Assembly (NCBI RefSeq): GCF_000003815.2
Contig: NC_049994.1
Location: forward strand, 5,459,670 to 5,523,669
From: Branchiostoma floridae
Lineage: Eukaryota; Chordata; Leptocardii; Amphioxiformes; Branchiostomatidae
Direction: 5' to 3'
Length of the DNA stretch: 64,000 nt
The notes beneath the pieces were generated by a model. That model saw only the letters and a program-made list of their open reading frames with translations, ran no database searches and was not told the origin of the DNA. The position numbers and the translations under genes are program-made. Each line of letters opens with the position of its first letter. The stretch's first letter is position 1. Below, one piece after another: positions 8,532 to 56,155 of this stretch.

Positions 8532-9033
8532 CCTGTTTCCTACTCCAGTCGGGTCGTCCTACTTATCTGGGGACTTGTCCTAATGGCTTTTCCTGCCAGA
8601 GGAAACTTTATCCAAGAAAGGGAACTAGTAAGTGGCGCGACCAAAACTCAAGGGAAAAGGCGCTCAGCGCCCCGCCGACATTTCCGCCCGGCTAGCCGCA
8701 GAAACAAGCTAAAAACTAAGCTAAAAACTCACTGAAAGTTACTCGGTAACCTCACACTATCAAAATCCTTTCTGCTAAAACATTTGAGCCCTAAAACATC
8801 CGAGGAAAATCCTGCTGGCGCTTCCTGCCAGGGGAAACTTGACGAAAAACAATATGGCGCCGCCCGAGTCACCTCGTGGTACGAAAGAAAGGGTCACAGA
8901 CCGCCTAATTTTTCGAAAAAACTTCCCGGAGTATCGTAAAAAGAGAACCTAGGACTTCTAATTACTGAAAGTCTACCTAAAACAGACTACAGTTAAAATA
9001 TCAATCGTTTAAAATCGCATAAGTCAGGTTGGT
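8532..9033. promoter_or_regulatory. GC-rich spacer between divergent PHD and RT ORFs
   Basis: Holds two direct copies of TTCCTGCCAG(A/G)GGAAACTT (about 8588 and 8821) and CpG-rich words (GGCGCTCAGCGCCCCGCCGA, ATGGCGCCGCCCGAG). If the minus-strand half is an inverted LINE 5' end, this is its 5' UTR and internal promoter. It could act bidirectionally. No core promoter is demonstrated. Confidence 0.4.
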
Positions 9034-27200: not shown

Positions 27201-30200
27201 AGAATTCACAGTAGCTGTGTCCTTGTCTCCTCCCATGGTATTTGGATGTTGATGAAATGAATTAAAAAATGACACTCTCTTAATTTTATTGTAAGATAAG
27301 AAAACCAGCATATTTTTGTAATTGTTGTGATTTGAATTTAAGTAGATTGCACAGAATCATAATGACAATGAAGTACTCATTTAACATAACAGCAAATAAA
27401 GTACTCTCCAAACTAAGGCATGGGCTTTCTTCGGATGTCTTTTTAATTGCCTTTTCTGTGATCCTCTCTTCTTGTCAGTTTTTTTTTGCATTTAATGTAA
27501 AAACTGTCAAAAGGAAAGGCAGACAAAATATGCCTAGCAAGCTGGGGCCTAACCTCTTCTTGGAAAGTACAGAATAGAAGAAACTGTAGGATCTCACCTT
27601 CCTGACAATGATGGAGAAGTCTGTCTTAAGTTTTAAGACGTATTAAGACGGGATACTGGTCTACAGGCAGACAACTTGGGGAAGGCGATGACTGACAGAA
27701 ACCTCTGGGCTGCTACAGTGGTTCAGGTGGCAGGGGAGGAGCAGCACCCGACATAAGTCAAGTAAGTCAAGTCAAGTCTTAAGTTTTTGTTGTCATGATT
27801 AGCCATTCTTCTTGCCAGTTTTATGTACTTTACAAAATACTGACAAAAAGAAAGGCGGACAAAACCTGTCTTGCAAGCTAGGGCCTAACCTTTTCTTGGA
27901 GTGTACAGAGTAGTAACAAGACACTGATAGATGCTCACCTTCCTGACAATGATGGAGAAATCTGTCTCACACTTCATACACTTCTTCACCTCCTTATCCT
28001 CCATCCACCTCTCCCCAGTACGCAGCTTCTGCAGATACTCCAGCTGGTCTGTTTTCTGCCAAAGTTGGTCCTTCTCTCTGCAGAAAGCCAAAACAGTTGT
28101 GAAACAGGATTTTTGTTAATTTTTCATGAACTGTGTTAGACCCTAGTATCATGATACCCAGAATAACAGTGCCACAGACATGGTACAGGAGTGTGTGTAG
28201 TCTATTGGTTAGTCACCCTGCCTCTGTACCAAGATCGTGAGTTCGAATTACGAGGGGCGTTCAATAAGTAATGCCCCTGACTAGGGCTGGGTATCGGTAC
28301 AGCGTACCGGTACAAAACCGTTTTTTCTTATTGGACCGGTCCAGAAAAACCGGACCTGAAAAGATTAGGTGGACCGGATGTTGGACCTATTAGAAAATTA
28401 ATAGATTATTTTATCAGGCATCATATGTTTTGGTGCTTGCAGGTTGAAGAAAATAACAAGAGTGAAGTAGAGTAGAGTTTATAATAGTTTCTACCAAGCT
28501 TTACAGCCAATTGCACAGGTGCAGTTAGCGTTGTAGGATTTTAAAACGCCAGTGTAAGTCTAATACTCCACCCAACAGATTTCTTTGTTGTGAAATAGAC
28601 CATTGGTATGTGTCATACTGAATCAGGTCCAGGTTCAGGTCCGGACCTGGACCTGATCCTTTGGACCTGAACCGGACCTGGACCTGAATGTTCTGTACCG
28701 GTACCCAGCCCTACCCCTGACCCATTTCCCATAGCAGGAGATTAATGAAACTTGACACAGCTATTAGTCTTTCTTTTCATAGGAACCACACAGAGTTATG
28801 CATTTCTCCCATTGTTTGATGCAGCTCTGGACACCGTTTTTGTAGGACACCCCAGGTTGGTCCTCCAACAGATGCCTCATCATTGGCAGAAGAGGGACGA
28901 CCAGGTCTGGGAGCTGTTTCCACAGACTTCCGTACATGTTTGAATTCAGGATGCCAGCGTTTTACAAGGTCATATGATGGGGCATCATCACCATAAGTTT
29001 CTTTCATTTCATCAAAAGTCTCCTTTGGTGTGCGTCCTTTCAAATACAAAAACCGGATCACTGCGCGACGCTCAACTGGCTCCATTTCACACGTGGTCCA
29101 TTTCACACATGACTCAGTTTAAACACCAGTAAATTAGAAAACACAATTAGTTCAGAGCTGTTTTTGCCACATAACCCATAGAGATATGAATCATTACACA
29201 TGCAAAATTTCATCTACATCAAACAACTGGAAGTGGGTTAGGGGCATTACTTATTGAACACCCCTCGTACTCACCAAGCATGCATGAACTGGCAAGGGTC
29301 CCAGTCCTTAGGATAGGATGCTAAGTTCATTGTGCTTGCCAAAAGTGCACTATGGTAATTTTCCTGGTACAATGAACATGTAAGTGAAATAAGGTTAGAC
29401 ATCCAGGTAATAAGAATTTCATAGAAAAGCAGTGTGAGTGAGTCTAACCTGATGAGTTTGATGAGTTCAGTTTTGAGCTCCATGGTGTCTGTTCTCATCT
29501 CCTGTAGCTCACGTTCCTTTTCCTCACACTCTCTCCGCGCATCGCTTAGCTCAGCCTAGAGTGGCACAAAAAACTTTGGTGAGAAACTAAAAAAAATTCT
29601 GGCAAAACTGTGTGTAAATGTCAAATGCATTCATGCCCAACTCCAATTTTTTCTTCTTTTTCTTTTACACTCCCTTTTTTTTCATTATATTAGGAACGAG
29701 CATACACAATGAATTACAAACATTGTCAAATATTGAGACAGGTACTTCCTATCCATTGCTAATCTTTACTTGTTTAATCTAGACACATGGATCAGCACCA
29801 AGGACAAATGCCTTCACACATGGATCAGCACTTAGCAAAGATACTAAGACGCATAGATCAGCACCAAGGACAGATGCTTAAACACATGGATCAGCACCAA
29901 GGACAGATGCCTAAACACATGGATCAGCACTACGGACAGATGCCTAGACACATGGATCAGCACAATGGACAGATGCCTAGACACATGGATCAGCACCAAG
30001 GACAGATGCCTAGACACATGGTTCAGCAAACAGAAACATGGATCAACACCAATGAAAGATGCCTGAACACATGGATCCGCACTAAGATCAGATACCAAGA
30101 CACATAGATCAGCACCAAGGAAAGGCGTCTAGACACATACCAAGGACAGATACCTAGACACATGGATCAGCACTAAGGACAGGTACCTTAACACATGGAT

Positions 30201-42200: not shown

Positions 42201-45200
42201 GAAGGAGGGCAATGCCCATGGACAAAAGAATGTTCTGGCAATTCAACAGTACAGAGCAGACGTCAATAAGCCTACTCAAAGACTATATTATTATAATAGC
42301 AAAAGACTTTACTATAGCAAAAGACAGACAAGCCTGGAGACACATCTCTATCTTCATGGCTAACTTATCCACCAAACGACCTGGATGTCAAGGAACTAGG
42401 TACTAGTTAGACAGGTAGTTAAAACAGATACAAAACCAAAAACACTCAAAAAGTTTTCTTACCTGGCAAAAGTTGGCCATGCTGCGTCAAGGTCATGTCC
42501 GTGGGGTGTAAGGTCAAACTGGATGTCGTTCAGGTCATAGAAGTGGTTGACGAGGGCAGAGGATGTCCCATGATGCAACAGCACCGACCGAGGATGATAC
42601 CAATCACTGTAGTGGGAGAAAAATGACTTAGTTACAGCTAACATGGTAACCAGAGTATGCCTGTTGTTCATACCAAAATCACTAGAGGGCACTACTGTCC
42701 TGAAAACTGGAATAAGATACTTTGAACAGACTTGAGAATGACCTTACCTGGTGATCTTGCCATTAAGAACACACTGCTGCACACTGTCAGCCAATCGCTG
42801 GTGGACAAGAGAGTAGCGGAGAAACGCACGGCCTCGACCCAGATTGGTCTTGACCTGTGCAGCAAAATGAAGTAACGCTTAATAACTGACTTTCACAAAC
42901 TTTTCTACAAATTGATAATTTAGATGAGACAAAGCAAAAATGGATGATCAAAAATTTATCTGATGGTTATTTTTATATAAATAAAGGAAGATTTGGTTAG
43001 TGATACTGATACCAGTCTATTACACTAGTGTCACTTTGACTACACTAGTGCACTTCTCAAATACAGGAATGAATGTCTTGTTAGTTGTGATGCCATATTT
43101 TTTCGCTTCAAATCTTGATGGTGTCTACTTTGAAAATTTGCCATCTTGTTTTTTTTTACCCATCTTTTTGCCCTATCTCATTGTTTTTACTGTCAGCAAA
43201 GGATGTCATCCATGAAAATTACTTGCTGTGGCCTAATTTTCTAGCTTGTCTTTTTCTAATGTGTCTGGATAAGTGGTGACATGAATGACTTTTAACAGAA
43301 TTGACAGAGAATCAGCAATATGGACTGTATTCCGAGACCAAAAATACAGGAAACTGACCAAAGGACATGAAAGCAGGGTTGTAGCCAGCACCTGTCCTTC
43401 AGTCCTTTGAAGGAATTTTTCAGCTGGGGACTGAAAAAAAAATTCCCCATTCCGTCCCCTGGGACAGACAAAATTGATATGTAAAGATATAAAAAAAACT
43501 GAAACCCATGTGTTCTTCACCAAAACAGATGCCATTGAACAGCTTAGTCTACAAGCAAAATTTGCACCTCAAAATGCAGGAAATAGTGTTTCAGAGGGTC
43601 TTGATTTAACAATTTTCTGGCACCCAGACCCCCTAGAAATGATGCGCAACGTCACGCCATGCCTTTGGTGCTCGATAGGATTCCCATTCAAAATCAAGGG
43701 GACTGAAAATGATTTCAGGCTGGCTACAACCCTGCATGAAAGCATTGAAGAAGCAGAAGAGATACCTGTAATATCTAGAAAAAAGCCATTTGTATCATCC
43801 TGCAGAAGAGTAAGAACGGTAAAGAGTTTTACCTCATTCTGACTCTTGACATATCTGATGCCATCATTCAGCCCTTTGTTCCCTGCCAGACAGTCACAGA
43901 AGTAGTTCCAGTAGTCCTTCTTCCCACCCAGGAAACTCGACTTCTCTGGACACAACAATGGAATAAAGGGGAAATGTTTATCTATGAGGAACTTTTATTT
44001 TTTTTTTAATGATCATTAGCTTTGGCAACAAGATTATGTTTTAAGGTGTGTGTATTTGTGTGTGTTTGTGTCTGTCCGTGTGTGTCTGTCCGTGTGTGTC
44101 TGTCTGTGTGTGTGTGCATGTGTGTTTGTGAGCAGCACAACTAAAAAAGATTCTGGGCCCCTGTAGGCTTTTTTAGGTATTGCAGTAGAACTTCCATCTT
44201 AAAGTTTGACTTTCTGTATGTGTTCTACACAAGCTACAGTCACAATTTTTGTGAGGTAGCTAGCTTTTGTGCCCAGGAAGTGGTGTAAGGCTGGGCCCAC
44301 TAGCAGCTTCTTTTACACCTGCAGGCGCATCTTTGTTGCAGACTTTGAAAAAAAGTACATGTACGTAAGAAGGCATGCTTCTTTGAATGTTTAGATTTTA
44401 AAACATTTGGTCCTCCTTGAGTATATCTTCATTTAATTTTCTTCAAGTCTTTTAACTTGTCCACTAGGATAAACACATCTAAATAAACTTCTCCTCAAAT
44501 CACATGATTCCATACTTTAAGCAGAGCTTTGATTGGTTGTAATCTTCTAGCCAATCAAAGCAGTTGTCAGATAAGATATACATGTACACTATGTTGGCTC
44601 CACTTAAAAGAAAAGACCTGAGCTGTGCACAATGGATAAATCTGATTTATAGCTCCTTCACTCACTTCAATTAATGACAAGAACACATCAAACATTTCTT
44701 TATCATAATAAACTTTGATAAGATGACAAAGTCTACAGACTAAAGAGATCTTAAGTTGATAAGACAGGCATTTTATGGCACCATAAACTCTGGATAAATA
44801 TGTCTTAGACTCATTTCAAGTGACTCTTAACTATATGACTTAACAATCTGCAACCAAAGATCAAGATGCAATTTTGCATACACTTCTTTTGGATTGGGAT
44901 AATCCATTTGTGCTTACAAGTAGATACGTTTTATGAAGAGCTTGCAGTGAACATTACTTTTTTCATAGATGAAGGAACTTTGAGTAATCATATAAGTTGC
45001 AAAGTTAACCTAAAGCTTCAGCAAAACTGTAATGCAAACCTAAATAGTGATACACACTTTTAAAAAAGGTTTTCTCCTCAGCATAGTAATTATCACCCCC
45101 TGTTCAAGAAATGGTACAGTCCAAATCACCTGATATGGTATAAGTTTAGCGCCCTCAAAGCAAAGCAGCTGTACTCAGCAACAAGCTCAGCTGTACAGGT

Positions 45201-48200
45201 GGCCAACAGTACCCTTCTTTCTTCTTTGTAACAACGAGAGGGCTCACACCAAAGGCATCATGCAGAAGTTTCTCTACATCCTTCTGTCACTGGCAATCTG
45301 CAGTGCCAATGTCATGAGGTGAGGAAACTCTACTCGGATACCCGAACAACCTCCAATCTTCGCTAACTATTACTTAGAGTCCAATCTTCGCTAACTTTTA
45401 GTTAGAGTCAACTGTAAAATAAGCTACAATTTTTAGAAAACTAGCAAAATCTAGCCTCGTTTTTGTCTAAGTATGTTTGATCATAATGGAAAGTAAAAAC
45501 TGATGGACAGCAGACTGACCATGTTTCAGTCAAAATCGATGTGGACAAATATAGATTTCAATTTTCATAGCTTGATAATTAGCATGTCCACGAATGAGTT
45601 TTGCCAGCTGTATTGGTAACTTTGCTGCTAAAATGAATTCAAAACAAAAAGGAAACACAAAAAATCTCATTTTTCGTTACTTACTAATAGTTAACTGCAG
45701 AATAAAAAAACGCATGGAAATCAATACATTTGCTGTGTCTAAAGTTAGTAGAGCCTGGTTAGTAGCTTTATACAATATAAGTGTTTTATCGTTCTTGCTT
45801 GCTGTTGTCATAAGTATGAACCCTCTACTTGGCAGTATGTCAGAAGTAGCTGGAGAACTGGAGATCTCTAGATGTAACATAAGTAGATCTAGAAGAAATC
45901 TGCTCTTATTTTTGACAGGGACAGTGACCTTGGTGAAGATGAGGACTGGATGGTGGGAAACGACCTTCACAACCTGCCCCAGCCCATGATCAGCTCCGAG
46001 CTGACCACACGGCTGTTCCACATCGAGCAGCAGCTGACCAACTTTGAAGGTCAGTAGCAGGCCCTAGCTAGTGCATTTGGGGCCAATACACACCATGCTA
46101 AATCAGTTCCACTAATTTTCAACTAACGTAGTGGTGCATAGTGATAATTATCTACTAATGGAGAAAAATCTGAGCAAATATAAAATATTGATATGACACT
46201 CCAAACTGACAAACTAATTTCATTGTGATGTTAAAAGAATTATGTCCCATCAAGGGTACCCTTATAATGCCAACTTTTTACCCTATAGCAGCTGCTATAT
46301 TTTCAATATTTTCAAGACCCCATTTCACCATCTCCTGATCGTTACCTCATCATATAACTGGTATACTAAAGTAAGATCCTGGCTAAAACCCTGTTCAAAC
46401 CATGTCAGAGAGGAAGATTTAGCAACCCCTCCCTGTAACAATATACCCTGCTACTGAAATAGCGAAGAAACTTACTGCCTCATGTCACAAGTTACATGCC
46501 ACTACGCTGAACAGAAGTCTGAACAAATCTAAACAAACATGTACAAGCGAACACAGGGCTTTAGCCAGCTCGAATTTTTTTTCTGTCAGCCAATTACAAT
46601 CGTCGCGAAAACCGCCAAAATTAATTAGAAGGACTGAACTGAGACCTTGAAAAACGGGTTTTAATGAGATTATCGTATGCGAAAGGGCACCGACACACAT
46701 TGTCAACAATCATAACAATAGCAAAACAAACAGTGTGTGGCTATTACGGCCGTGGATGGCGTCCCCAAGCCGCCTGTAGCTTCCACCAAGGATTTTTGTC
46801 CGTCAAGGTTGACGGATTGGTTTTAAAATTTTTCCGTCAGACGCAGCAAATTTCCGTCAATTGACGGAAAAACGGACGCTGGCTAGACCCCTGAGCGAAC
46901 AAACAAATGCCCTTCCTTCCCCCCCAAAGGAACCATGAGCACCCTGCAGGCTGAGCTGTCTGCCCTGAGAGACCGTGTGCAGGTGGAGCGTGAACAGACA
47001 GGTGCCTCCTTCAACAACCTGAAGCACCTGCTCAATAACGAGTACATCCAGCGCAGGTCTAGTCTGGATGAGGTCAACCTCAGTCTCACCTTCCTCCAGG
47101 TAGGTACAGTCAAACCTGCCCGAGCGACCACCTCTTCTCAGCGACCACTTGGCCATTTCGACCGCTTTTTCTCGGTCCCGATTTATTTTCCCATTGACGT
47201 AATCATTAAGCAACCTTTTCTCAACGACCACCTGGCCAACGCGACCGCGACCGGCCCAAATTGGGACCCATAACGACCGCATCATTTTCAAAATTGAGGT
47301 TTTCATCGATCTTTGATGATAGCTAGCACGATTTTGTGCCGAAATCAGCCGGTTTGCGTCGGATTTTGGGGTTAAATTTACAGTTTACAGTGTGCGTGTT
47401 GTATTTGACATTAAAGACCTGGCTTCTTTGCGTGCGTGCAGTGTGCTTGCTATTTGCCATTAAACACAACGGAAACCATTTATACTTTGCATCGGGCATG
47501 TTTTGAGTCGATACTCTTCTCAGCGACCACCTGTCCAAATCGACCGCTTTTTCCCGGTCCCCCGGGTGGCCGTCTTGGGCAGGTTTGACTGTACATGTAC
47601 AGAACCCAATGTTTCTTTGTCAAACCATCGTTTACAGTTCTTTTATACCTGTCAGACAACAGTTATATGATAGTATGTTTTTGTAATACAAAAGATGGGG
47701 ATTGTTCATTCCTTGAAAAAAACAAAGTGCTGTTCAGTCAAAACTCTGGGTGAGTCCAATTTTTGTGTTGGATATTACACTTTTACTATTTCAAATATAT
47801 TTATAATGACTTCTACCAACACAGATGAACTTTCAAGTTAAAAGATGGGGATGTCCCTGTACTTCAACTGGTACAAGCCAAACAATTTAGCTCCCAGTTC
47901 CAATTAGTTGGTTTAATCCTGGAAATTCAGAATATTTTTTTATTGGAAATTCAGAATATGAAAGATACCAAATTATGGGTCATCTTATATACCATAGCAA
48001 AAGCCAAGTGGATCAAGTGCTCCCTTTGCATCCAGTAGGTTTTGGGCTTGATTCCCTGGTGGCCAAATCACACTGAACATTAGCTACTTCTCTGCTAAGT
48101 AGTAATATAGTACTCTGTACATGGAGAATATTGTAAGTCGAAACTACCATTGCACTACTAGTCCCCCCCCCACCACCACCACACCATAGCCTGAACTTTG

Positions 48201-51200
48201 TTTTGTTACTGTTGTTGCAGTCCCAGCTTCACCAGACAGAGAACCAGACTGGTCTGATGGACCAGATCAGACAGGAGCTGTGTCGTGTCACACCAACTCT
48301 GGGTACGACCTTACATATTATATTTGTAAATTTGTTTAATATGATTTAAAGTATGGTAGCAACCTTCCAATTTCCTATCCAAACAGCAGCTATACCCAAT
48401 AATTATTAAATTTTAACTCGATATTAATTATTTACTCTATCAGTCTATGGAAGTCATTTCTAACCCCTCTTTAATTTTCTTTTTTTCTTTAAATTTAGAA
48501 GATCCATTTTCTTTAAATGCCAATACTCACTTAAGTCATAAAATGGCAGCAGAACAAGCACACAAAGTTGTAAAGTTGGAATTCTAACTTGGTATCCAAA
48601 CACAAAGTTGCAAACTTTAAGCCTTATACCCAAGCCTATCACAGCTACCAAGTCTTTCCTGTCCCTTACAAAGAGATCGGCATGTTTGGATACCAGGCTG
48701 GTAAACTTCACACGGTTGGGTTTTCCTTCACCATACAGGTCTGATTGAGCACCTGACCTCACCTGCGGGACACTACCAGTACACCTGGCAGGAGGCCAAG
48801 CAGGCGTGCGAGGCTGACGGGGGCCGGCTGGCCGAGTATCGCGAGCTGTATGCTGAGTACAGGTGAAATCTCTCACTCTAAACTTGCCAGGAAAACATCT
48901 TTACAGCTGCTGCATGCGGCTGAGCAATTTTGCAAGACATACAAAAATATGTCATTAATATGATGAATCAGATATAAAGTAACTGTCTTACTTAAGTAGC
49001 TGTATGTGTTAGGCAAACAATTCCCTATTGCCTTGGGTTACAGGGTTAGAGGTTCATTTTTCCCTATAAGTTAACCCAGGTCATTATACTCAATGTCCCA
49101 TATGGACCCGCATATACATGTGTAGGTCTCGTTCTCAGGTTATTGTCAACCATTAGTGAGTAGAGGATCTTACAACTCTGGGAATGAGAGCCACCACATT
49201 ACCTGGAGGAATAAACTAACTCACTTTGCTCAGTGGTTTATTCGCTGGTCATAGGAACTGACCTTGAATTAAGACACTGTATACCTTAGGACAGGTCACT
49301 AACCCTATACCGAAAACTTTGACTTCTGAAATGACTTTGGCTTGAAATGACACCTAACCAAGAAACAATCTTGTTTTATCTGTACAGTGTATCTTGTCTT
49401 ACAAAGCCTGTATGTCCCTGTAGGCGTGGCCTGGAGAGGTGCGACTGTGGCTGGCTGGCGGATGGAACGGCCTGGTACCCGATGCACAGCGTGTGGCCCC
49501 AGTGTAAGAACGCCCGCGGCATGCACGTGTGTGAGGAGCAGGGCACCTACAACGCCTGGTGCTGGAAGAAGCTCTCCATCTGCCCCTAGGCACATGGCCA
49601 GCATCCGTCCTTCCATCCTTTGACGGAATTTTCACATGTCACATGATTTGCATCTGATAGCCACAATGCCTATCAGAAGTTCTTTTACTAGTTTCAGACA
49701 AACTGCAACATTTTCATAAAGCTTTTACATGACAAATAAGACCCTTGAGGTTCTCTTATCCTTAAAACTTATATGATCTCTTTTCAAATGTCATTTAGAT
49801 AAAAGTGGCTGAAATTGTTGGTAATACAGATAAAAGAAAATAAAGCACTAGCAATAGTCTTACTTGTATGTGGTCATTCTTTGTAGCAATGTGAAAAGAT
49901 CTATGATAGCTAACTAGCTAACTGAGGTATTCTATGTCCTTACATCACCTGATCAATATGTTATCAAATAGTAGTGAAATACATATCAACTTTCTCTTTG
50001 CTACCTAACCCATAACATCAATACAGTATACGCTTGCATAACTGAAGTATTACTGTAAATGCAGAAATGTTTGCGGTGGTTTTATGTATCGGATTTCGCT
50101 GTGGCCACTTCGCCGTGAACTTAAAACCACCACTAACACTCCATTTTCCCGCTACCACTAAAGTAAATTGGATTTCCCCGCGAACTTAAAGGCATTTACA
50201 GTAAATCGTATCCCTTCCCACGGTGACTTCAAAAGAGTTCTCAATAATAAATTTGAAGGATCAAAGAAGCACACACTACGTACTTGACTTTGAAATCAAC
50301 AAAGCAGAATTTTCTTGTCCTGTCAGCATTTCTGCAACAAGTGTATTGTAAAGTATATCTTTATTACAGTCAAGAACTTCAACATCATAAAAGTTTGCAG
50401 CCTTGTTAGCAATCCTCTTGAACTCTAAAGTCGGGAACCATAAAAACGAACAAACAATCACAAAAGTCATTGTTCTTTAACAATTCAATGCCAGGCATTA
50501 CAACTTGTACAGGAAAGAGCAAGCATGATGTTACTCATCCACAAATTTCACATCGCAGGGATTTTGGCACTCTTGGTAAAGGTGGACTACAGTGGCGTTG
50601 CCAGTACATCTGTTAATACAACAGTTACTACAGATGAACCTCCTGAAGAATCAGCAGTCTCAAATGTTGAGCTAGCTTCACAACTAGGGACAATGGAGCA
50701 TCAGATGTATCTGCTACAAGGTTAGAAAAATTTTATTATAATACATTTTCAGCCTACCATCAATAATAATAGATCAGAGTGCAGCCCTTGGTTCCAATTA
50801 GTCAAGGTAACTGGGAGATCCCAGTTCAATCCTGGTTGGGGCTGCACCTGTCTTTTGGAAGGGACGTTTAATATGGGTGTCCCTTGCTTGAGGCAGTGCC
50901 TTGAGCACGTTAAAGGGTATTAAAGAACAAGCAACCACACCACGTAATAACATACCCTGCTACTGAAACAGCAAGGAAACTTTGCCTTATTTGTTACTAG
51001 GCACTGCATGGGTCTGAATGAAAATATTTTGTACTAAAGATCTTCATTTAAACTTTATTGCTTCTTTATAAATGAGTAATTTTATAACAGTCATATATAA
51101 CTTCACCCTCTGAGGACATACATTATGTATAAGCTGGCTTGAGATCAAAGGAGTATATTGGACTGGCCATAAAAGAAACAACCAGTTAACCTGAAACAAT

Positions 51201-54200
51201 AGTGCCACAAATCATAGCAAACTTGTGAAAGTGTCAGGAACTCTGGTGGTTGTCAGATTAATATGATGATGAATTAACATTTGGAAAGGAAGAAAAACAA
51301 ACGTACATGTATGTATGTATGAAAGAAGGAGGGAAGGAAAGAAAGGAAAAGGGAAAGAAGGAAGGAAAGGGAGGAAGAAAGGAAAGGAAGGAAGGAGGGA
51401 AAAGGGAGGGAGGAAGAAAGAAGGAAGGAAAGGAAGGAAGGAGGGAAGGAAGGAGGAAAGACACAAAGGAAAGATGGAAGGAAAGGGGAAAATTAAAGGG
51501 AGGGAGGAAGAAAGAAGGAAGGAAGGAAATGTAGGAAGGAGGGAAGGAAGGAGGAAAGACACGAAGGAAAGATGGAAGGAAAGGGGAAAATTAAAGGGAG
51601 GGAGGAAGAAAGAAGGAAGGAAGGAAGAAAGGCAGGAAAACAGGTCTTAAAAAGTAAAGATAGATAAAAGGTAAGTAGCATTTTAGAGGCTGTAGGGGTA
51701 GTGGAATGTTATCCACTGTGTCTAGGGCACAGTGTTGGAAGCTAGTCCAACCCTCTCCTTCCACTACCTTTTACTTTTACCTCCCCAACCAAAGTCAGGG
51801 ACCCATTTTTACAACTGGATGGAGTGAGGAAAATTTTGCTAACTACCTTTTCAAAGGGCAAAAAAATTGGTGGCATGTCAGGGGACTCAAAGCCAGGACC
51901 TCCGGGTCCTGGGCTTAACACTCTAAGTCTAACCATAACAGCAACTCAATGCCATCTAACTTGCCATAACTAATTCATACTTTCATGTTTCAGACCAAGT
52001 CAACACATTGCAATTGGAAGCAGAAAATATCTGGAAACAGTTCTTCTTGGCACAGGCACAGAAGCACAAGAAGTTGGCCAACCTGTACACCCAACTAGCC
52101 ACACAACAGGCACAGATAGTAGATGCCATGGACAACATGGTGGAGGCTGTCAGGTCCTTCAAGGCATCTTCAGCTAAAGCTGAACATCTCCAGACAATGA
52201 TGGAAAAAGCTTTTTGCTTTGCGACACCACCTCTCGGTAAGGAAAAGAACAACATTCCTAACCTTCCTTATTCATGGAATCATAGTATGGAGATCCTAGT
52301 TGTTGCCTAGTACCTTGGATCTTTTTATGTGACTTTTATACCTTGTATTATTTCAAATTGCTTCACTGTTTCACTTTCTGATACATGCAATAAAAATGAG
52401 GTAGACACATTTGTGATGCAGTCCTGCCTCCTATCAGCTCTTATTGGAATAACACCTACGTGTAGTGCATTATTTTGAAAAATAGTAAGAAGCAGTCATC
52501 ATTTCCCCAGGGAACTTGCCTCTCCACAAGACACATTTGTGGTGCAGTCATGCCTCCTATCAGCTCTCAATGGAATAACACCTACATCATTTTAAAATAA
52601 AGTGAGAAGCAGTCATCATTTCCCCAGGGCACATCTTCCAGCTTGTCTCTCCTCATCAGCAATAGTACAGTTTAATGGAGGCAGGCACATTTGTAATGCA
52701 GTCCTGCCCCCTATCAGCTCTTAAGGGGAACTAGACCTTTTTTTGTAAAGCATTCTGCAATATTTTAAATACATCAAAAAGTCCAGTTTTTACTTGTTTT
52801 ACGTTAGTCCATCATAGATTAGCGTTTCCACAACATTTGAACTTCACGGCGTTTTGTTGTCAAGCCCGGGAAGTACTGCGACCTTTGACCTCTGTGACGT
52901 ATTCCGACCGCCAACCTCCATACTGCTAAATACGCCAATACGCTATACCACGGCTTTGTCACCACGCTACTCTCCAAATGATGGATTCCGGCGACTTGGA
53001 GGGAGTAAACGAGTTTGAGGGCTTTGAGGAGTACGAGGGGTTTGACCCACAGAATATAACTCCGTACAACTACCTGCCCAGGCGCCCAGCGAGATCGGCC
53101 GAGGAGACTGGGGAGGTCGGCAGGCGCGCCGTTGGAGCTACTTCTGTCGCCCCGTCGACACATCCAGAACTTATCGAGGCTGTCAGCGTCGTCGAATGGG
53201 ACGGGACCGATGTTGAAACCTTTCTTGCGGGAGTTACTACAAACTACGCAGGAAGGCATTGCGCCCCCTCCCCACATTTCAGCTGGACGAACTTGCGGGA
53301 AAAAAAAACTCCTATTTTCGTACGTCCTTAATACGTTTTGTGCCACAGACGAGGTCGTAACAAACTCTAAATGAAGAGTTCACAAGTTACGGTCCACATT
53401 GGCAAGTCCTGGATTGAAAAAGCCGGACTGGAAAACTTTATTTATACGATAAGTTCCCGCGCAGTCAAGATGTGTGCTGGACGTGCGAGCTGGGGCAGGT
53501 TGGTGGTCGGATTACGTCACAGAGGTCAAAGGTTGCGGTACTTCCCGGGCTCGACAACAAAACGCCGCTAAGTTCAAATGTTGTGGAAACGCTAATGTAT
53601 GATGGACTAGCGTAAAACAAGTAAAAACTGGACTTTTTGATGTATTTAAAATATTGCAGAATGCTTTACAAGAAAAGGTTTAGTTCCCCTTTAATGGAAT
53701 AACACATAATTTCCTTAGGACACATCTTCCAGCTTACTCCTCCACATGACCAGTACAGTTTGTCGGAGGCAGACAGGGCATGTAGGGAACATGGTGGCTG
53801 GCTGGCTGAATACTCCCAACTCATTAAACTGGACAGGTAATTAGAGTCTAACACAAGGGCCTACATTTGGGGGTGCCATCAATGCTGTACACTAGAATTG
53901 GCTGACTGGTTCGCTTTGTGCTACATCCAGTAATGCTTAACAATCTGAATGCACCAATTATGCTCTATATTAGATTAGAACAGTCTACAAGTTACATACA
54001 ACTATAACAACTGGTTACTCTTTATCAGTTTCTGAAAAAGGGTATGCAGGTCACTTTAAACTACACCCTTCTTTTTTTCATTTGGATATCAAGAGGACCA
54101 ACTACTAGAGCTTTATTTATGATGCTATGTCGCAAACCTTGTATGCCATCTTCAGTCAATACGTCTGTATATATTAGCCAGTTTTGTATGAATATTTCAA

Positions 54201-56155
54201 GCACATTTGACTTATTGCATCCTTTGTATAAAGAATGGAGATAGCATATCATGTCTGAAGTTCATGGTTACTATAATTCTAATGTTAGGATCTTTAAAAT
54301 TACGGCAGATATTTAATTGCTCTTACAATCATTATAATAGGATGGAGTCTGGACCGTACCACTGTGGTTGGGTAGAGGGAGGAAGAGCATACTACCCAGT
54401 CTGGGAGGAGACTGCTAGTTGTCATGGCAACAAGTGCATCCGCATCAAGACTTGTGACAAAGGAGAGAAACACAGCGCCTGGTGTTTCCAACCCTTGGGC
54501 ATCTGCCCACATACAGTTCACCAAATGACTGAAGGATTCATTCCTTAAGTTAGGCATTATCTTTCAGAACTGCATTAACTTGTGCTAAGATATTTGAGTC
54601 CACTTTACAAATTTGCTCCAGTTTTTAAAAATAAACAGGTTTGCAGTAATATAAGATGGTTTGCACCTTTGTGACATTTTCTGCTACCTTGCGCCATTTT
54701 GCGAATGTTTTTTGTTACAAGAGTAAGACGACTGTTAGCACCCCCTCCACTCTATGTACCTTAGTATAGCCCAACAAGAATATTGACTATGGTGTGCTCT
54801 CTTAGAACTGATGCCTTACGTAATGCAATCTCTAATTTCACTGGACTCTGGAGATTCAATGCTAAGTAACCTACAAAATGAAACAGTTTTCATTTTTCAA
54901 AAAAATTCCCAATTTCAGGCAACAAATTGGCAGCATTTTGGCGCTGATTGGCATTGGCTTGTACCACTTACAAATGTAGTGGTGTAGTCCAGTGAGGTGC
55001 CCACTTTATGCATTAGTTAAGCTACAGGTCAGGGCTCGAAATACTTTTTTCTGTATACATGCACTGGTGCAGGTAACATTGAAAATTACTTGCACCAGAC
55101 AAATTTACCTGCACCACTCTGGTCTTAAGAATTATGAATCATACTAAAATTGTTCAGGAACCATGCATCGCTATCTTTTGTTTCATACTTTATCAATGCA
55201 GCTAATAACAAATGTCCTAAGATGTAGGTGTATATGGATCATGTATAAAACATAGTACATGGACCAGTGCAGGTTAGGTGCAGGTAAACACCAGAAATAC
55301 CTGCACAGCTCCAATTTTACCTGCACTAATCTGCATATGCAGGTGGTATTTCGAGCCCTGCAGGTGCAATATTCATGAACATGTTTGACAGTGAGTGTAT
55401 TACCTTTCTGGTCTGTCTGTAGCAGGATTTCTAGCTTGGCACAGAAGCGGTGCAGAGTTGTGTTGTCATCTGTGATTGGCTCCTGGATCTCTGTGAAGTA
55501 CTGTTGCTTCAACTCAGTGATGCATTCTGGGACAGACACAAAGATGTCAATACAAATGTTGTAATGACACACAAGAGAAGAAGAAAAACAAAAAAGCCAG
55601 GATTGGACAAGTCCACTAGTCTGATTGTCCAGAGCAAATGAAAGTGCTGATCGCACAAGTGCATGTCCTACCCCATTTGCCTGATCGGGCAAGTAAGATT
55701 TTTCCATGAGCGTGATTTACTTGATACAACTTTATGTTACTTTTCACAGTCATGGCATCAAGCATTGGTCAACACAGTAAAATAGAGCCAATGATAAAAG
55801 AATTCCATTGATTGCTGGAAGTGAAAAAAAAATGTCATTAAAATTTCAGGCAAGTGACAAGTTGGTTTGGGCAAGTTCATTTTCTTATGTACTTTTGTAC
55901 TAAGCGAATTTTAGAAAACTTTCCATTCCCGAATAAAACCCCTCAAATGTATGCTTATGTTGTTCCAATTCATATATATAGTGATATGGTTAATGGTTAA
56001 AATAGCAGTTCCAAGCTCTGTGTAGGAAAAATAAGATGGACATGTAAGACCTTAGACTAGAGACTTGTCTTAGACATTAAAATTCAAACCACATTACCTT
56101 CGATGTCTTTGATGAGTTTCTGCACCTGTGGGTTGGGAGGAGGTGCCGTTGCCAT
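18228..56155 (-). CDS. FYCO1: FYVE and coiled-coil domain-containing protein 1, complete (23 exons)
   Basis: Coding exons 5'->3': 56155-56098, 55526-55404, 43945-43833, 42854-42748, 42606-42463, 42008-41924, 39138-39052, 37891-37655, 37082-34200, 33358-33235, 32834-32805, 32527-32367, 31798-31658, 30957-30838, 29555-29449, 28077-27939, 27118-27045, 23713-23592, 23046-22926, 22794-22753, 21256-21100, 19717-19554, 18294-18228 (TAA). The sum is 5406 nt = 1801 aa, with every phase matched. Order: RUN (about 20-182), coiled coil (about 215-1506), FYVE (about 1515-1605), LC3-interacting motif, GOLD (about 1660-1801). Human FYCO1 has the same order at 1478 aa. The known protein links RAB7 and LC3 vesicles to kinesin for plus-end transport. 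Intron 2 (11.5 kb) hosts two opposite-strand genes. The least certain exon is 22794-22753. Confidence 0.96.
18400..18974. mobile_element. Decayed Tc1-like element, host of the MITE at 18427
   Basis: CAGTCAAACCTATACAAGTG on the left and CAGGTTTTACAG on the right are degraded versions of the CAGTCAAACCTG ends. The interior AAGGACCACCTGTACATAAG resembles the fragment at 56376-56560. It lies in FYCO1's last intron. Confidence 0.5.
18427..18778. mobile_element. hAT-type MITE (CAGGGCTCTAGCCAGC), copy 1
   Basis: Ends CAGGGCTCTAGCCAGC / GCTGGCTAGAGCCCTG. Flanks GACCACCG and GACCACTG match 7 of 8, a near-perfect hAT target duplication. It is nested in the older Tc1-like element. It is about 350 bp with no transposase, and the second copy is at 46554-46893. 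Confidence 0.85.
19127..19536. mobile_element. hAT-type MITE (TAGGGCTGGGTACC), copy 1
   Basis: TAGGGCTGGGTACCGGTAC opens and GTACCGGTGCCCTA closes the element. Perfect GATGACTG target duplications lie at 19119-19126 and 19537-19544. The interior is repeated AGGTCCAGGTCC words. It sits 9 bp beyond the FYCO1 exon 22 boundary, just past the GTATGT donor. The same family in the opposite orientation is at 28282-28713. Confidence 0.9.
19990..20153. mobile_element. MITE with 40-bp near-perfect inverted ends
   Basis: TACTCTCCAAGCAGAGGTTA and about 20 further bases on the left are repeated inverted on the right (20111-20151). Related half-ends (GGGGCCTAACCTCTTCTTGG) occur in the 27540 and 27870 duplicates, and AAGCAGATCCTA-type ends at 24519. 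It lies in a FYCO1 intron. Confidence 0.7.
20560..20940. repeat. Inverted repeat flanking assembly gap
   Basis: Sequence left of the 100-N gap (20706-20805) is repeated inverted to its right: ATAACAGGCGACACTATAAT at about 20565 and its complement at about 20892-20915, plus CATTCCTTATCATGACATAG near both gap edges. It is a TIR element or hairpin that likely broke the assembly. The gap length is a placeholder. Confidence 0.7.
20706..20805. other. Assembly gap (100 N)
   Basis: Exactly 100 N, a placeholder for unknown length, between inverted repeat arms. Confidence 1.
21260..22740. other. FYCO1 intron, no recognised feature
   Basis: AT-rich sequence with a GCAGCCAGTAAAGTTTGACTT stretch near 21400 and no ORF, TIR pair or RNA signal that I can support. 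Confidence 0.4.
22926..23046 (-). CDS. FYCO1: FYCO1 exon 19 with LC3-interacting motif
   Basis: Encodes acidic [22 protein letters not shown]. The core FDFV (23008-22997) in an acidic setting aligns with the known human FYCO1 LIR (FDII followed by acidic residues), lying between FYVE and GOLD as in human. It is predicted to bind ATG8/LC3 and tether autophagosomes. A second potential start in the same frame is not relevant. Confidence 0.85.
23592..28077 (-). CDS. FYCO1: FYCO1 FYVE zinc-finger exons 16-18
   Basis: Exon 16 holds [14 protein letters not shown] then [18 protein letters not shown], with the WxxD motif as WMED and the first CxxC. Exon 17 gives [14 protein letters not shown], completing the R-K-HHCRxCG phosphatidylinositol-3-phosphate signature. 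Exon 18 gives [16 protein letters not shown] with the last Cys pair. FYCO1 has RCC instead of the usual RVC, as here. All eight zinc ligands are present. FYVE domains bind PI(3)P on endosomes and autophagosomes. Confidence 0.96.
23781..24262. mobile_element. Harbinger-like MITE (TTA/TAA + GGCCACAGCAAGTA)
   Basis: The right end TACTTGCTGTGGCC then TAA is intact. The left end (TAA then AGCCGAAGCAAGTAAATTTT) is degraded. The internal GATGTCATCC-like words match the copy at 59433-59965 and the fragment ending at 43233. It lies in the FYCO1 intron after exon 18. Confidence 0.6.
24519..24697. mobile_element. MITE with TCTCCAAGCAGATCCTA inverted ends
   Basis: TCTCCAAGCAGATCCTATTA is mirrored by TAGGATCTGCTTGGAGA. 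AAGATAGTA / TACTATCTT also pair further inside. About 180 bp with no ORF, it ends about 75 bp from the candidate FYVE microexon. Confidence 0.7.
24772..24792 (-). CDS. FYCO1: Candidate 21-nt microexon inside the FYCO1 FYVE domain
   Basis: On the minus strand, a TTTCTTTCTTTCCAG acceptor and a consensus GTAAGT donor flank 21 nt between exons 17 and 18. Exon 17 ends with two codon bases and exon 18 supplies one, so inclusion stays in frame and adds seven residues (reads [11 protein letters not shown] across the junction). Without it the Cys-Cys spacing equals human FYCO1. With it the loop gains an LPS segment like those in other FYVE proteins. Both splice sites are seen in sequence; use is inferred. 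Confidence 0.5.
25105..25895. mobile_element. TIR element CCAATGGACCC
   Basis: CCAATGGACCCTTTCAG and CTGGAAGGGTCCATTGG form the ends. Inverted similarity continues through TATTTCGAA...CTCGGTCAAAAAC for about 95 bp. ORFs inside are weak and lack known domains. A short relic (TGGACCCTTCCATTGG) follows at 26059. It lies in a FYCO1 intron. Confidence 0.65.
26372..26963. mobile_element. Inverted-repeat element with hammerhead-like hairpin
   Basis: Arms 26376-26436 and 26783-26833 are inverted copies (GTTAGCAAGTGAAAGGATTG). A third pairing joins 26372-26398 with 26935-26963. At 26860-26889 lies CTGAAGAA, a 6-bp stem GGTGAC/GTCACC and GAAAC, followed by AATAAAGCACTGG. The architecture resembles Penelope-like element ends, which can carry hammerhead ribozymes (family knowledge). 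No RT is present. Confidence 0.5.
27480..27632 (-). pseudogene. Decayed partial copy of FYCO1 exon 16 donor end
   Basis: 27593-27625 repeats the exon 16 donor (CTCACC) and the last coding bases (CTTCCTGACAATGATGGAGA) found at 27934-27963. Upstream MITE-like sequence (AAGCTGGGGCCTAACCT) is also duplicated (27540 vs 27870). Coding similarity stops after about 28 bases. The tandem duplication spans the intron/exon border, leaving a decoy donor. Confidence 0.7.
28251..29267 (-). mobile_element. Mariner element, internally deleted, with transposase N-terminus
   Basis: TIRs CGAGGGGCGTTCAATAAGTA and TACTTATTGAACACCCCTCG are flanked by TA (28249-28250, 29268-29269). A minus-strand frame (29106-28777) encodes [39 protein letters not shown] and APRPGRPSS, the helix-turn-helix region and GRPSS-type linker of mariner transposases. 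The catalytic DDD part is missing. The left TIR region is split by a hAT MITE. It lies in a FYCO1 intron. Confidence 0.88.
28282..28713. mobile_element. hAT-type MITE (TAGGGCTGGGTA), copy 2, nested in mariner
   Basis: TAGGGCTGGGTATCGGTAC and GTACCCAGCCCTA bound the element, with perfect CCCCTGAC duplications at 28274-28281 and 28714-28721. It is inverted relative to the copy at 19127-19536. Removing it with one duplication restores a continuous mariner end. Confidence 0.93.
29784..30796. repeat. 33-bp minisatellite, about 30 copies
   Basis: The unit ATGGATCAGCACCAAGGACA...GATGCCTAAACAC is 33 bp, with a few 36-bp variants, so frames stay open on both strands: [11 protein letters not shown] on plus and [11 protein letters not shown] on minus. 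It sits in the FYCO1 intron between exons 14 and 15 and lacks splice borders. Treated as non-coding VNTR; 29787-30107 and 30227-30796 are the longest runs. Confidence 0.9.
31090..31376. repeat. Two tandem copies of a ~148-bp unit
   Basis: ATAGTCTTCAGTACTTCCAA...CTCACATGTAAAAT occurs at about 31095 and 31245 with few differences. It lies in the FYCO1 intron 13 region with no coding role seen. Confidence 0.8.
31887..32337. mobile_element. hAT-like MITE (CAGTGTTCTAGC)
   Basis: CAGTGTTCTAGCTAGCTTG and GGTAGGCTAGAACACTG form the ends. The interior words CCTCTGAAATGCTAGTTCCT and CCCCCTAG are shared with 43374-43734 and the relic near 15720-15860. No clear target duplication. It ends about 30 bp before FYCO1 exon 12. 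Confidence 0.6.
32805..32834 (-). CDS. FYCO1: FYCO1 30-nt microexon (exon 11)
   Basis: A TTTTTTTTTCCAAG acceptor and GTAAGA donor bound 30 nt, adding ten residues ([10 protein letters not shown] plus a shared codon) between coiled-coil exons 10 and 12. Both sides are phase 1, so it can be included or skipped without shifting frame. The non-heptad, Asn/Pro-containing peptide would break the coiled coil. It is likely an alternative cassette. Confidence 0.65.
33514..33837. mobile_element. GTGCAAAATAC MITE, copy 2
   Basis: A close copy of 6751-7073 in the same orientation, ending AAGTATTTTGTACACTG. Flanks ATGAC (33509-33513) and ATGTC (33838-33842) are a near 5-bp duplication. It lies in the intron after FYCO1 exon 9. 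Confidence 0.78.
34200..37082 (-). CDS. FYCO1: FYCO1 exon 9, 2883-nt coiled-coil exon
   Basis: One uninterrupted 961-codon exon with acceptor TTTGTAG and donor GTAGGGG. It is nearly all heptad-patterned, Glu/Lys-rich coiled coil. A single oversized central exon is also a feature of vertebrate FYCO1, so gene structure supports orthology. The longer total length against human comes from this and neighbouring coiled-coil exons. Long antisense ORFs here are codon-bias shadows. Confidence 0.95.
37935..38670. repeat. ~136-bp tandem repeat array, 4-5 copies
   Basis: GAAGACAACAACTTCATCAC begins units at about 37943, 38263, 38401 and 38537. Each continues with ATTCAGCACCA, CAATCAGATCTATAATCCA and TAGGCTGTTCAGTTGCTTAG. 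The first unit is interrupted by unrelated sequence. It lies in the FYCO1 intron between exons 7 and 8. Confidence 0.8.
39146..41200. mobile_element. 2-kb TIR/foldback element abutting FYCO1 exon 7
   Basis: The identical 8-mer GCTGGAAC lies at 39138-39145 and 41201-41208. Ends GGTAACCGGTCGTTTCGTTA and the inverse of GAATACAGGTCGTTTCGTTA match over GGTCGTTTCGTTACATCG. Subterminal TTTCGTTACA words repeat many times. A second internal palindrome of about 220-bp arms (39840-40064 with 40300-40525) contains CATGAGACGACGGGCCG. No transposase is seen. The 8-bp duplication suggests hAT-like transposition, although the ends are not the usual CAGGG. Confidence 0.85.
41924..55526 (-). CDS. FYCO1: FYCO1 RUN-domain exons 2-6
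   Basis: Exon 2 encodes [20 protein letters not shown] and [17 protein letters not shown]. Exon 3 has [14 protein letters not shown] and [13 protein letters not shown]. Exon 4 has [19 protein letters not shown]. Exon 5 has [20 protein letters not shown]. Exon 6 has the [14 protein letters not shown] linker. Each matches the vertebrate FYCO1 RUN region in order. RUN domains bind small GTPases or kinesin adaptors (family knowledge). The 11.5-kb intron between exons 2 and 3 contains both Link-module genes. Confidence 0.95.
42980..43233. mobile_element. Harbinger-like MITE fragment
   Basis: The right end ACTTGCTGTGGCC then TAA, with CACTAGTGT words and GATGTCATCCATGA, matches the family at 59433-59965 in the same end orientation. 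The left end is not found. Confidence 0.5.
43374..43734. mobile_element. hAT-type MITE (CAGGGTTGTAGCCAGC)
   Basis: CAGGGTTGTAGCCAGC and GCTGGCTACAACCCTG bound it, with perfect CATGAAAG duplications at 43366-43373 and 43735-43742. The interior is shared with 31887-32337. It lies in FYCO1 intron 3, about 100 bp from exon 3. Confidence 0.93.
44047..44125. repeat. TG/CTGTCCG-rich simple repeat
   Basis: Alternating GTGTGTG with TCTGTCCG interruptions in FYCO1 intron 2. Confidence 0.85.
45260..49589 (+). CDS. Secreted coiled-coil/Link-module protein A, nested in FYCO1 intron 2 (243 aa)
   Basis: Exons: 45260-45318, 45919-46049, 46930-47099, 48221-48302, 48739-48862, 49424-49589 (TAG). The sum is 732 nt with all phases matched. 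[16 protein letters not shown] is a clear signal peptide. Residues about 30-150 are acidic then helical ([19 protein letters not shown]), a likely coiled-coil oligomerisation stalk. The C-terminal ~90 residues are a Link module: [20 protein letters not shown], then [15 protein letters not shown], then YNAWCWKK. Link modules bind hyaluronan or related glycans (family knowledge). The usual CDAGW is CDCGW here, adding a Cys. AATAAA at 49839-49844 follows. The gene runs opposite to its host. I recognise no named orthologue. Confidence 0.88.
46554..46893. mobile_element. hAT-type MITE (CAGGGCT..AGCCAGC), copy 2
   Basis: Perfect AGCGAACA duplications lie at 46546-46553 and 46894-46901. The body is highly similar to 18427-18778 in the same orientation. 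It ends 36 bp before Link gene A exon 3, so part of that intron's 3' region is MITE-derived. Confidence 0.93.
47107..47591. mobile_element. Tc1-like MITE at Link gene A exon 3 donor
   Basis: TA (47105-47106) then CAGTCAAACCTGCCC is mirrored by GGGCAGGTTTGACTG then TA (47592-47593). Same family as 985-2026. It begins 8 bp after the exon end, directly behind the GTAGGT donor. Confidence 0.92.
50051..50203. mobile_element. TA-flanked MITE (TACTGTAAATGCAG), copy 1
   Basis: TACTGTAAATGCAGAAATG is mirrored by GGCATTTACAGTA. The interior has GCGAACTTAAA and TTTTCCCGCTACC, shared with 58912-59123. It lies between Link genes A and B. Confidence 0.85.
50525..54548 (+). CDS. Secreted coiled-coil/Link-module protein B, paralogue of A (254 aa)
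   Basis: Exons: 50525-50720, 51994-52236, 53719-53836, 54341-54548 (TAA). The sum is 765 nt with phases matched. The first ~27 residues ([20 protein letters not shown]) form a hydrophobic signal or anchor. A Thr/Ser-rich stretch ([16 protein letters not shown]), a likely O-glycosylated linker, precedes a coiled coil ([20 protein letters not shown]). The Link module spans [20 protein letters not shown] through [14 protein letters not shown] to [12 protein letters not shown]. Intron positions in the Link part match gene A, so they are tandem duplicates. The expected CDAGW Cys is lost (YHCGW), keeping only the shifted one. Exon 50525 has a second in-frame ATG. AATAAA at 54630-54635. Confidence 0.86.
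50781..51010 (+). mobile_element. tRNA-like SINE
   Basis: TTAGTCAAGGTAACTGGGAG...AGTTCAATCCTGG resembles box A/box B, followed by a non-tRNA body (GGCAGTGCCTTGAGCACG, ACATACCCTGCTACTGAAAC) also found near 46435 and, inverted, near 7100-7200. It lies in Link gene B intron 1. Confidence 0.55.
51325..51655. repeat. Polypurine GGAA/GGGA tract
   Basis: More than 300 bases almost free of pyrimidines on the plus strand, built of AAGGAAGG, GGGAGG and AAAGA units, with one ~100-bp internal duplication (ACACAAAGGAAAGATGGAAG and ACACGAAGGAAAGATGGAAG). ORFs across it are compositional. It lies in Link gene B intron 1. Confidence 0.92.
51700..51950 (-). mobile_element. Probable tRNA-derived SINE
   Basis: On the minus strand, TTAGAGTGTTAAGCCCAGGA and CTTTGAGTCCCCTGAC give weak box A/B-like words. 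The other end (CCAACCCTCTCCTTCCACTA) resembles low-complexity SINE tails. It lies in Link gene B intron 1, about 45 bp before exon 2. Confidence 0.35.
52398..52720 (+). pseudogene. Decayed tandem copies of the Link gene B exon 3 border
   Basis: Three units share ACATTTGT.ATGCAGTCCTGCC...CTATCAGCTCT...GGAATAACACCTAC and a TTTCCCCAG acceptor-like end. After the acceptor at 52626-52627, GGGCACATCTTCCAGCTTGT copies the start of exon 3 (53719: GACACATCTTCCAGCTTACT) but carries disrupted codons. The array continues, interrupted by a transposon, into the real exon. They are decoy acceptors, not functional exons. Confidence 0.75.
52725..53690. mobile_element. TTAA element with ~230-bp terminal inverted repeats
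   Basis: TTAA (52721-52724) then GGGGAACTAGACC on the left; GGTTTAGTTCCCC(T) then TTAA (53691-53694) on the right. The arms match for about 230 bp (TTTACTTGTTTTACG, GCGTTTCCACAACATTTGAA, CCCGGGAAGTAC). The 966-bp element is piggyBac/Kolobok-like by its target site. An internal plus-strand frame (52978-53331) is acidic at its start ([17 protein letters not shown]) and lacks a recognised domain. It split a Link gene B tandem unit. Confidence 0.92.
55037..55366. mobile_element. CAGGGCTCGAAATAC MITE
   Basis: CAGGGCTCGAAATAC and GTATTTCGAGCCCTG bound it, with CAGGT on both flanks (5 bp). The interior is rich in TGCACC/GGTGCA words, as at 60682. It ends about 37 bp before FYCO1 exon 2. Confidence 0.88.
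55590..55925. mobile_element. Relic of the ACAAGTCC MITE family
   Basis: Shares GGACAAGTCCACTAGTCTGATTGTCC and internal GGGCAAGTA words with 16122-16526. The ends are degraded. FYCO1 intron 1. Confidence 0.45.

Follow-up and report, generated by a model that had tools for sequence, protein, structure and literature searches.

Two tandem stalked Link-module genes nested in an intron of a FYCO1-like gene belong to a larger gene family of the lancelet Branchiostoma floridae

The window, that is the whole 64,000-nucleotide stretch of Branchiostoma floridae DNA analysed here, carries on its plus strand two genes, g1 and g2, for which the reading of splice sites and open reading frames gives intact models. 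g1 spans positions 45260-49589 (6 exons, 243 amino acids) and g2 positions 50525-54548 (4 exons, 254 amino acids), 45260 being the ATG of g1 and 54548 the final stop base of g2. The eight inferred introns, five in g1 and three in g2, are all GT-AG and in phase. Both genes lie wholly within one intron (43946-55403) of a gene on the opposite strand, and the features of the locus are as follows.

43946..55403, minus strand: intron of the FYCO1-like host gene, 11,458 bp, phase 1, separating two RUN-region exons
45260..45318, plus strand: g1 exon 1, start codon and signal peptide (donor GTGAGG; hydropathy)
45919..46049, plus strand: g1 exon 2, acidic spacer, start of the stalk, RLFHIE motif
46930..47099, plus strand: g1 exon 3, helical stalk (home-made heptad score)
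48221..48302, plus strand: g1 exon 4, end of the stalk and junction LCRVTPTLG with Cys141
48739..48862, plus strand: g1 exon 5, first half of the Link module, with Cys171 (Pfam match)
49424..49589, plus strand: g1 exon 6, second half of the Link module and stop (Pfam match)
49839..49844, plus strand: AATAAA downstream of g1, 250 bp past its stop
50525..50720, plus strand: g2 exon 1, signal peptide, spacer, start of the stalk (hydropathy)
51994..52236, plus strand: g2 exon 2, helical stalk, then the junction FCFATPPLG, which carries Cys140
52723..53691, no strand assigned: foldback element within g2 intron 2, with 195-nt inverted arms, 94% complementary
53719..53836, plus strand: g2 exon 3, first half of the Link module (Pfam match)
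54341..54548, plus strand: g2 exon 4, second half of the Link module, short C-terminal tail and stop (Pfam match)
54630..54635, plus strand: AATAAA downstream of g2, 82 bp past its stop

On the minus strand, exons of the host gene assembled by eye yield a RUN domain at E 7.7e-15. An open frame of 969 aa matches coiled-coil-type families and nothing else in Pfam, each match staying under cut-off; a pattern search finds FYVE-like exon pieces near 27118 and 27980, and GOLD_2 is matched at E 2.1e-4, also under cut-off. As RUN, coiled coil, FYVE-like and GOLD_2 regions occur together in the domain order of FYCO1, the sequence of the host fits a FYCO1-like gene. The preliminary description of this DNA had placed both genes in a FYCO1 intron of about 11.5 kb, in agreement with the 11,458 bp measured here between RUN-region exons. 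It had also located CXCR6 at the 5' part of vertebrate FYCO1, which disagrees with the position toward the 3' part that human CXCR6 presumably occupies, and had proposed that the FYCO1 intron may repeatedly tolerate nested genes, a proposal that is not retained, CXCR6 being an unrelated GPCR gene. A table in PMC3933685 does give FYCO1/CXCR6 as a different-strand nested pair. Homology of that nesting with the nesting of g1 and g2 was nevertheless rejected, and the parallel is held to be coincidental, because CXCR6 is unrelated to the Link genes. The nesting of g1 and g2 in FYCO1 is probably ordinary, incidental and of little weight.

g1 and g2 share the same order of parts: an N-terminal hydrophobic signal, a helical-type stalk, a Cys-containing junction and one C-terminal Link module. 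No Pfam family other than Xlink exceeds its cut-off in either protein, and Xlink does so in one stretch each (g1, E 1.1e-17 and 64.5 bits; g2, E 7.5e-9 and 36.2 bits; curated cut-off 27), and the Pfam search of both finds no CUB, no Ig and no second Link above cut-off; an NCBIfam search with g1 gives no match. When PDB sequences are searched, aggrecan and TSG-6 match both proteins and LYVE-1 matches g1 too, residues 4-69 of TSG-6 aligning without gaps to residues 152-217 of g1. A chance similarity to the Link module is ruled out by the profile E-values and the gene structure. Both proteins look secreted, since their hydropathy peak falls within the first 19 residues and, past residue 40, 15-residue windows reach at most 0.74 in g1 and 1.04 in g2, that is, no later membrane segment is found. 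Two complete antisense nested genes, each encoding a signal, a stalk and a C-terminal Link module, had been claimed from the outset; the in-phase GT-AG models with full open reading frames, together with hydropathy, heptad score and Pfam, bear out this picture.

The stalks of g1, g2 and 11 relatives are called helical by a home-made heptad score used without a null control, and the gene models of g1 and g2 contain no collagen repeats in their stalks. A trimer signature, [RK]hxxhE, is present in five of ten stalks tested, g1 included, each time with R, and is absent from the stalks of g2, C19A, C19B, C2a and C2b. Shuffled versions of the five motif-bearing stalks have it in 2-5% of cases, and the five positives include C17a, C17b and C15, three close relatives that do not count as independent.

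g1 and g2 are paralogues that probably arose by tandem duplication, as judged from their sequences. Their similarity extends over most of their length (BLASTP, g1 47-243 versus g2 49-242, 29% identity over 202 aligned positions, E 1.3e-24), and a phase-2 intron splits the Link module at the same aligned place in both (g1 residue 189). It is this shared site that argues for tandem duplication, because it is missing in all 24 other Link exons listed, every alignment of which crosses residue 189; in relatives whose splice sites were read, a phase-2 intron lies about 24 codons beyond the g1/g2 site. A FastTree analysis of 13 heads and TSG-6 places g2 beside TSG-6 (support 0.54) and g1 beside that pair (support 0.94). 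This absence of a g1+g2 pairing counts against simple sisterhood, but the head tree is given little weight because its branches are long, and sisterhood is kept on account of the full-length similarity and the common intron site. The Link cluster at 22.9-23.06 Mb of C2 was considered as the origin of this intron site and rejected, since its break point differs: in its Link exons the break falls at the second Link cysteine or immediately past it, some six codons beyond the g1 site, as judged only from the ends of tblastn pieces. C2 carries two clusters of this other Link subfamily, at 22.92-22.94 and 23.04-23.06 Mb.

The two genes are not isolated. Searching the genome (513 Mb, 431 contigs) with g1, which gives counts that are lower bounds, reveals at least 24 further Link exons of the g1 kind with E <=6.2e-10, located on nine further contigs and in other parts of C16, so that, g1 and g2 included, such an exon occurs in 26 or more genes or fragments of genes; one of the 24 (C7:18925203) has a stop inside the aligned Link stretch. 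The best matches outside the window are C19 loci, which take the four top places for g2 and the three top places for g1. All nine family heads submitted to Pfam match Xlink with E 0.001 or better, and a profile of these nine heads retrieves aggrecan (6.7e-37), TSG-6 (5.4e-16), LYVE-1 (1.5e-8) and CD44 (6e-5 to 2e-4) from PDB, the sole non-Link match among the 18 PDB sequences up to E 0.1 being a proteasome chain (0.081). The idea of an unusual architecture that had been put forward for g1 and g2 therefore stands, but as that of two out of at least 26 family copies rather than of an isolated pair.

At 12 of the 24 listed loci (four on C19, two on C17, three on C2, and one each on C14, C15 and C3), the Link exon is preceded by a stalk exon with an LCxxTPxxG-like junction at its end. 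Eleven of these stalks are helical, one of them frame-disrupted, and one is collagen. The disrupted one belongs to the C15 locus L018 (G000:C15:1018000-1027000, 4811-5155), where the stalk exon is read in another frame than the junction, and may reflect a pseudogene or a sequence error. The collagen one belongs to the C3 locus L023 (G000:C3:13947000-13956900, about 4317-4725), where 8 + 31 Gly-X-Y triplets are followed by the family junction and the Link exon; as read from its sequence, L023 is a collectin-like layout carrying a Link head. At eight of the 24 loci, the stretch of about 1.5 to 8.5 kb read upstream of the Link exon showed no such junction, L017 having a helical-type frame upstream of its Link exon without the junction; the remaining four (C7:18925203, C2:188540, C2:195459 and C15:794393) were left out of this upstream reading. 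At two C19 loci (L025/L004 and L026/L007), the upstream frame resembles, by eye, a type II membrane anchor, and for this reason the family may include membrane-bound members.

In an alignment of 13 heads and TSG-6, g1 has all four canonical Link cysteines and g2 three of them, with a Tyr at the second and an unusual CHGNKC. All 13 heads have an extra pair of cysteines, one just before GW and one after the third Link cysteine, which probably adds a disulphide, and the third and fourth Link cysteines are separated by 18-21 residues, versus 24 in TSG-6 (hand count). Cysteines also flank the module (Cys141/Cys242 in g1, Cys140/Cys241 in g2). A Cys after the fourth Link cysteine is present in 11 of 11 relatives that have the junction Cys and whose last exon could be read, and absent in the four readable relatives in which no junction was found (C6, two at C7:20.96 Mb, and C7:18.93 Mb). 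This co-occurrence of junction Cys and late Cys suggests a flanking disulphide around the Link module, as in the extended domain of CD44, where the cysteines flanking Link are paired.

Hyaluronan is contacted in TSG-6 by Lys11, Tyr12, His45, Tyr59, Lys63, Tyr78 and Arg81, as given in PMC3937638. g1 retains two of these seven residues (Tyr12 and Tyr59) and g2 only Tyr59, a count that depends on the alignment, g2 having a gap at 11-12. Among the 13 heads, the Tyr78 column is empty in all, and Tyr12 and Tyr59 are each kept in 12. The g1 and g2 heads each carry a net charge of -2; the 13 heads range from -2 to +5, versus +7 in TSG-6. Classical hyaluronan binding by the g1 and g2 heads is doubtful on these grounds, and the missing Tyr78, the lost basic contacts and the probable extra disulphide all point to a mode of binding other than that of TSG-6. 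Since Tyr59 and Tyr12 are so widely kept, a glycan groove of some kind may nevertheless persist, including some glycosaminoglycan binding. The hyaladherin function implied by the preliminary description is doubtful, as most TSG-6 contacts are absent.

When compared with known Link proteins, g1 and g2 do not have the architecture of TSG-6, HAPLN, lecticans, LYVE-1 or CD44, as had been stated before and as Pfam and hydropathy now confirm. TSG-6 (TNFAIP6) is a secreted protein, as g1 and g2 appear to be, and like them has a single Link module, which aligns without gaps to that of g1. TSG-6 however carries a CUB domain at its C terminus and is not stalked, whereas g1 and g2 have a stalk, lack CUB and have lost most hyaluronan contacts. 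HAPLN and the lecticans combine an Ig domain with paired Link modules; although aggrecan is the best PDB sequence match, Ig is absent from g1 and g2 and Link is unpaired. In the type I membrane proteins CD44 and LYVE-1 Link is N-terminal, whereas in g1 and g2 it is C-terminal and not followed by a membrane segment; the likeness is in the cysteines on either side of Link, as in the CD44 extended domain. In layout there is a resemblance to collectins, in which a collagen or helical stalk precedes a C-terminal glycan-binding head, and to type II C-type lectin receptors: the family likewise has a collagen or helical stalk and a C-terminal head of glycan-binding type. The head is however a Link module and not a CTLD, and collagen, absent from g1 and g2, is found in L023. 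Mussel XLINK1 is another invertebrate Xlink protein that is likely secreted, but no coiled stalk is named for it, the word "coiled" occurring 0 times in the main text of PMC12383584.

We consider it fairly probable that g1 and g2 are tandem-duplicated members of a lancelet family of stalked Link proteins, acting as oligomeric, secreted, multivalent glycan binders in a mode other than that of TSG-6. The stalk would oligomerise the chains, most likely as trimers, and avidity would help the Link heads to hold their ligand, a glycan or a matrix component, in another way than hyaluronan is held in TSG-6. With such an extracellular role, g1 and g2 could act as a small soluble collectin or matrix cross-linker in which a Link head replaces the C-type lectin head.

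These proteins could alternatively be true hyaluronan or glycosaminoglycan binders, that is, secreted oligomeric hyaladherins that cross-link matrix by avidity through a rearranged groove. The Link fold, clear by sequence from both Pfam and the PDB profile, and the retention of Tyr12 in g1 and of Tyr59 in both proteins are in keeping with this, as is a statement in PMC12383584 that lancelets developed hyaluronan binding, the Xlink of Ciona binding other glycosaminoglycans (citing a 2010 paper). The empty Tyr78 column in 13 of 13 heads, the negative heads of g1 and g2 and the small number of contacts kept, a number that depends on the alignment, make this reading unlikely. That the family serves innate immunity as secreted pattern-recognition proteins, analogous to collectins and diversifying by duplication, is possible but still improbable. 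The collagen or helical stalk with its C-terminal head and the multicopy nature of the family would fit such a role, and so would the substitution rates of the closest copies (L019, L018, L031, L033), for which dN is close to dS over 63 codons of the first part of the Link exon (dN/dS values 0.057/0.048 for C17a/C17b, 0.021/0.025 for C19A/C19B, 0.130/0.142 for C17b/C15 and 0.141/0.162 for C17a/C15), a hint of diversification drawn from very short sequences. This comparison covers 8 heads of 26, and one of them, C15, may be a pseudogene. Moreover, dN is well below dS in wider pairs (0.147/0.911 for C17b/C3, 0.161/0.347 for C19A/C2a) and between g1 and its seven relatives (dN 0.39-0.48; dS 2.3-2.5 in three, saturated in four).

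This last pattern, of moderate dN with high or saturated dS, also bears on whether g1 and g2 are untranscribed pseudogenes or artefacts of gene modelling. In one relative, C15, the frame is interrupted between stalk and junction. In g1 and g2, however, the frames are open, the splice sites are in phase and a polyadenylation signal follows each gene, which, with their homology along both stalk and head, renders this very improbable. Among the readings of the family as a whole, we tentatively put forward that it could form a lancelet analogue of the collectins, trimeric and either secreted or membrane-anchored, whose Link head with an extra disulphide, borne on helical or collagen stalks, would recognise microbial or other non-hyaluronan glycans. 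If so, recognition of glycans in general would have been a function of the Link fold alongside its vertebrate specialisation for hyaluronan, or earlier than it.

At the level of the domain, the expansion of Xlink in lancelets is already known, as PMC12383584 counts as many as 32 Xlink domains in Branchiostoma belcheri and assigns the majority of Branchiostoma hits to a basal clade with Ciona. A stalked or collagen-stalked Link architecture was not found described in the literature searched, which leaves most subscription journals outside its coverage: on amphioxus Xlink, the parts of PMC11788884 seen mention HAPLN domain pairs only, and the searchable parts of PMC12373286 and PMC4284660 contain nothing on Link genes for the terms tried. 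The stalked Link family, including its collagen-stalked member, may therefore be new as an architecture, although an earlier description is possible. In vertebrates, Link modules are known chiefly for binding hyaluronan, and a stalked family with a rearranged groove offers a direct test of the ligands of the Link fold in early chordates. Its collagen-stalked member would in turn test whether lancelets built collectin-like molecules on another head.

Elsewhere in the window, two further frames were recognised by eye: a 719-aa open frame resembling a non-LTR reverse transcriptase at 9013-11172 and, at 28777-29118 on the minus strand, a frame resembling a mariner-type helix-turn-helix.
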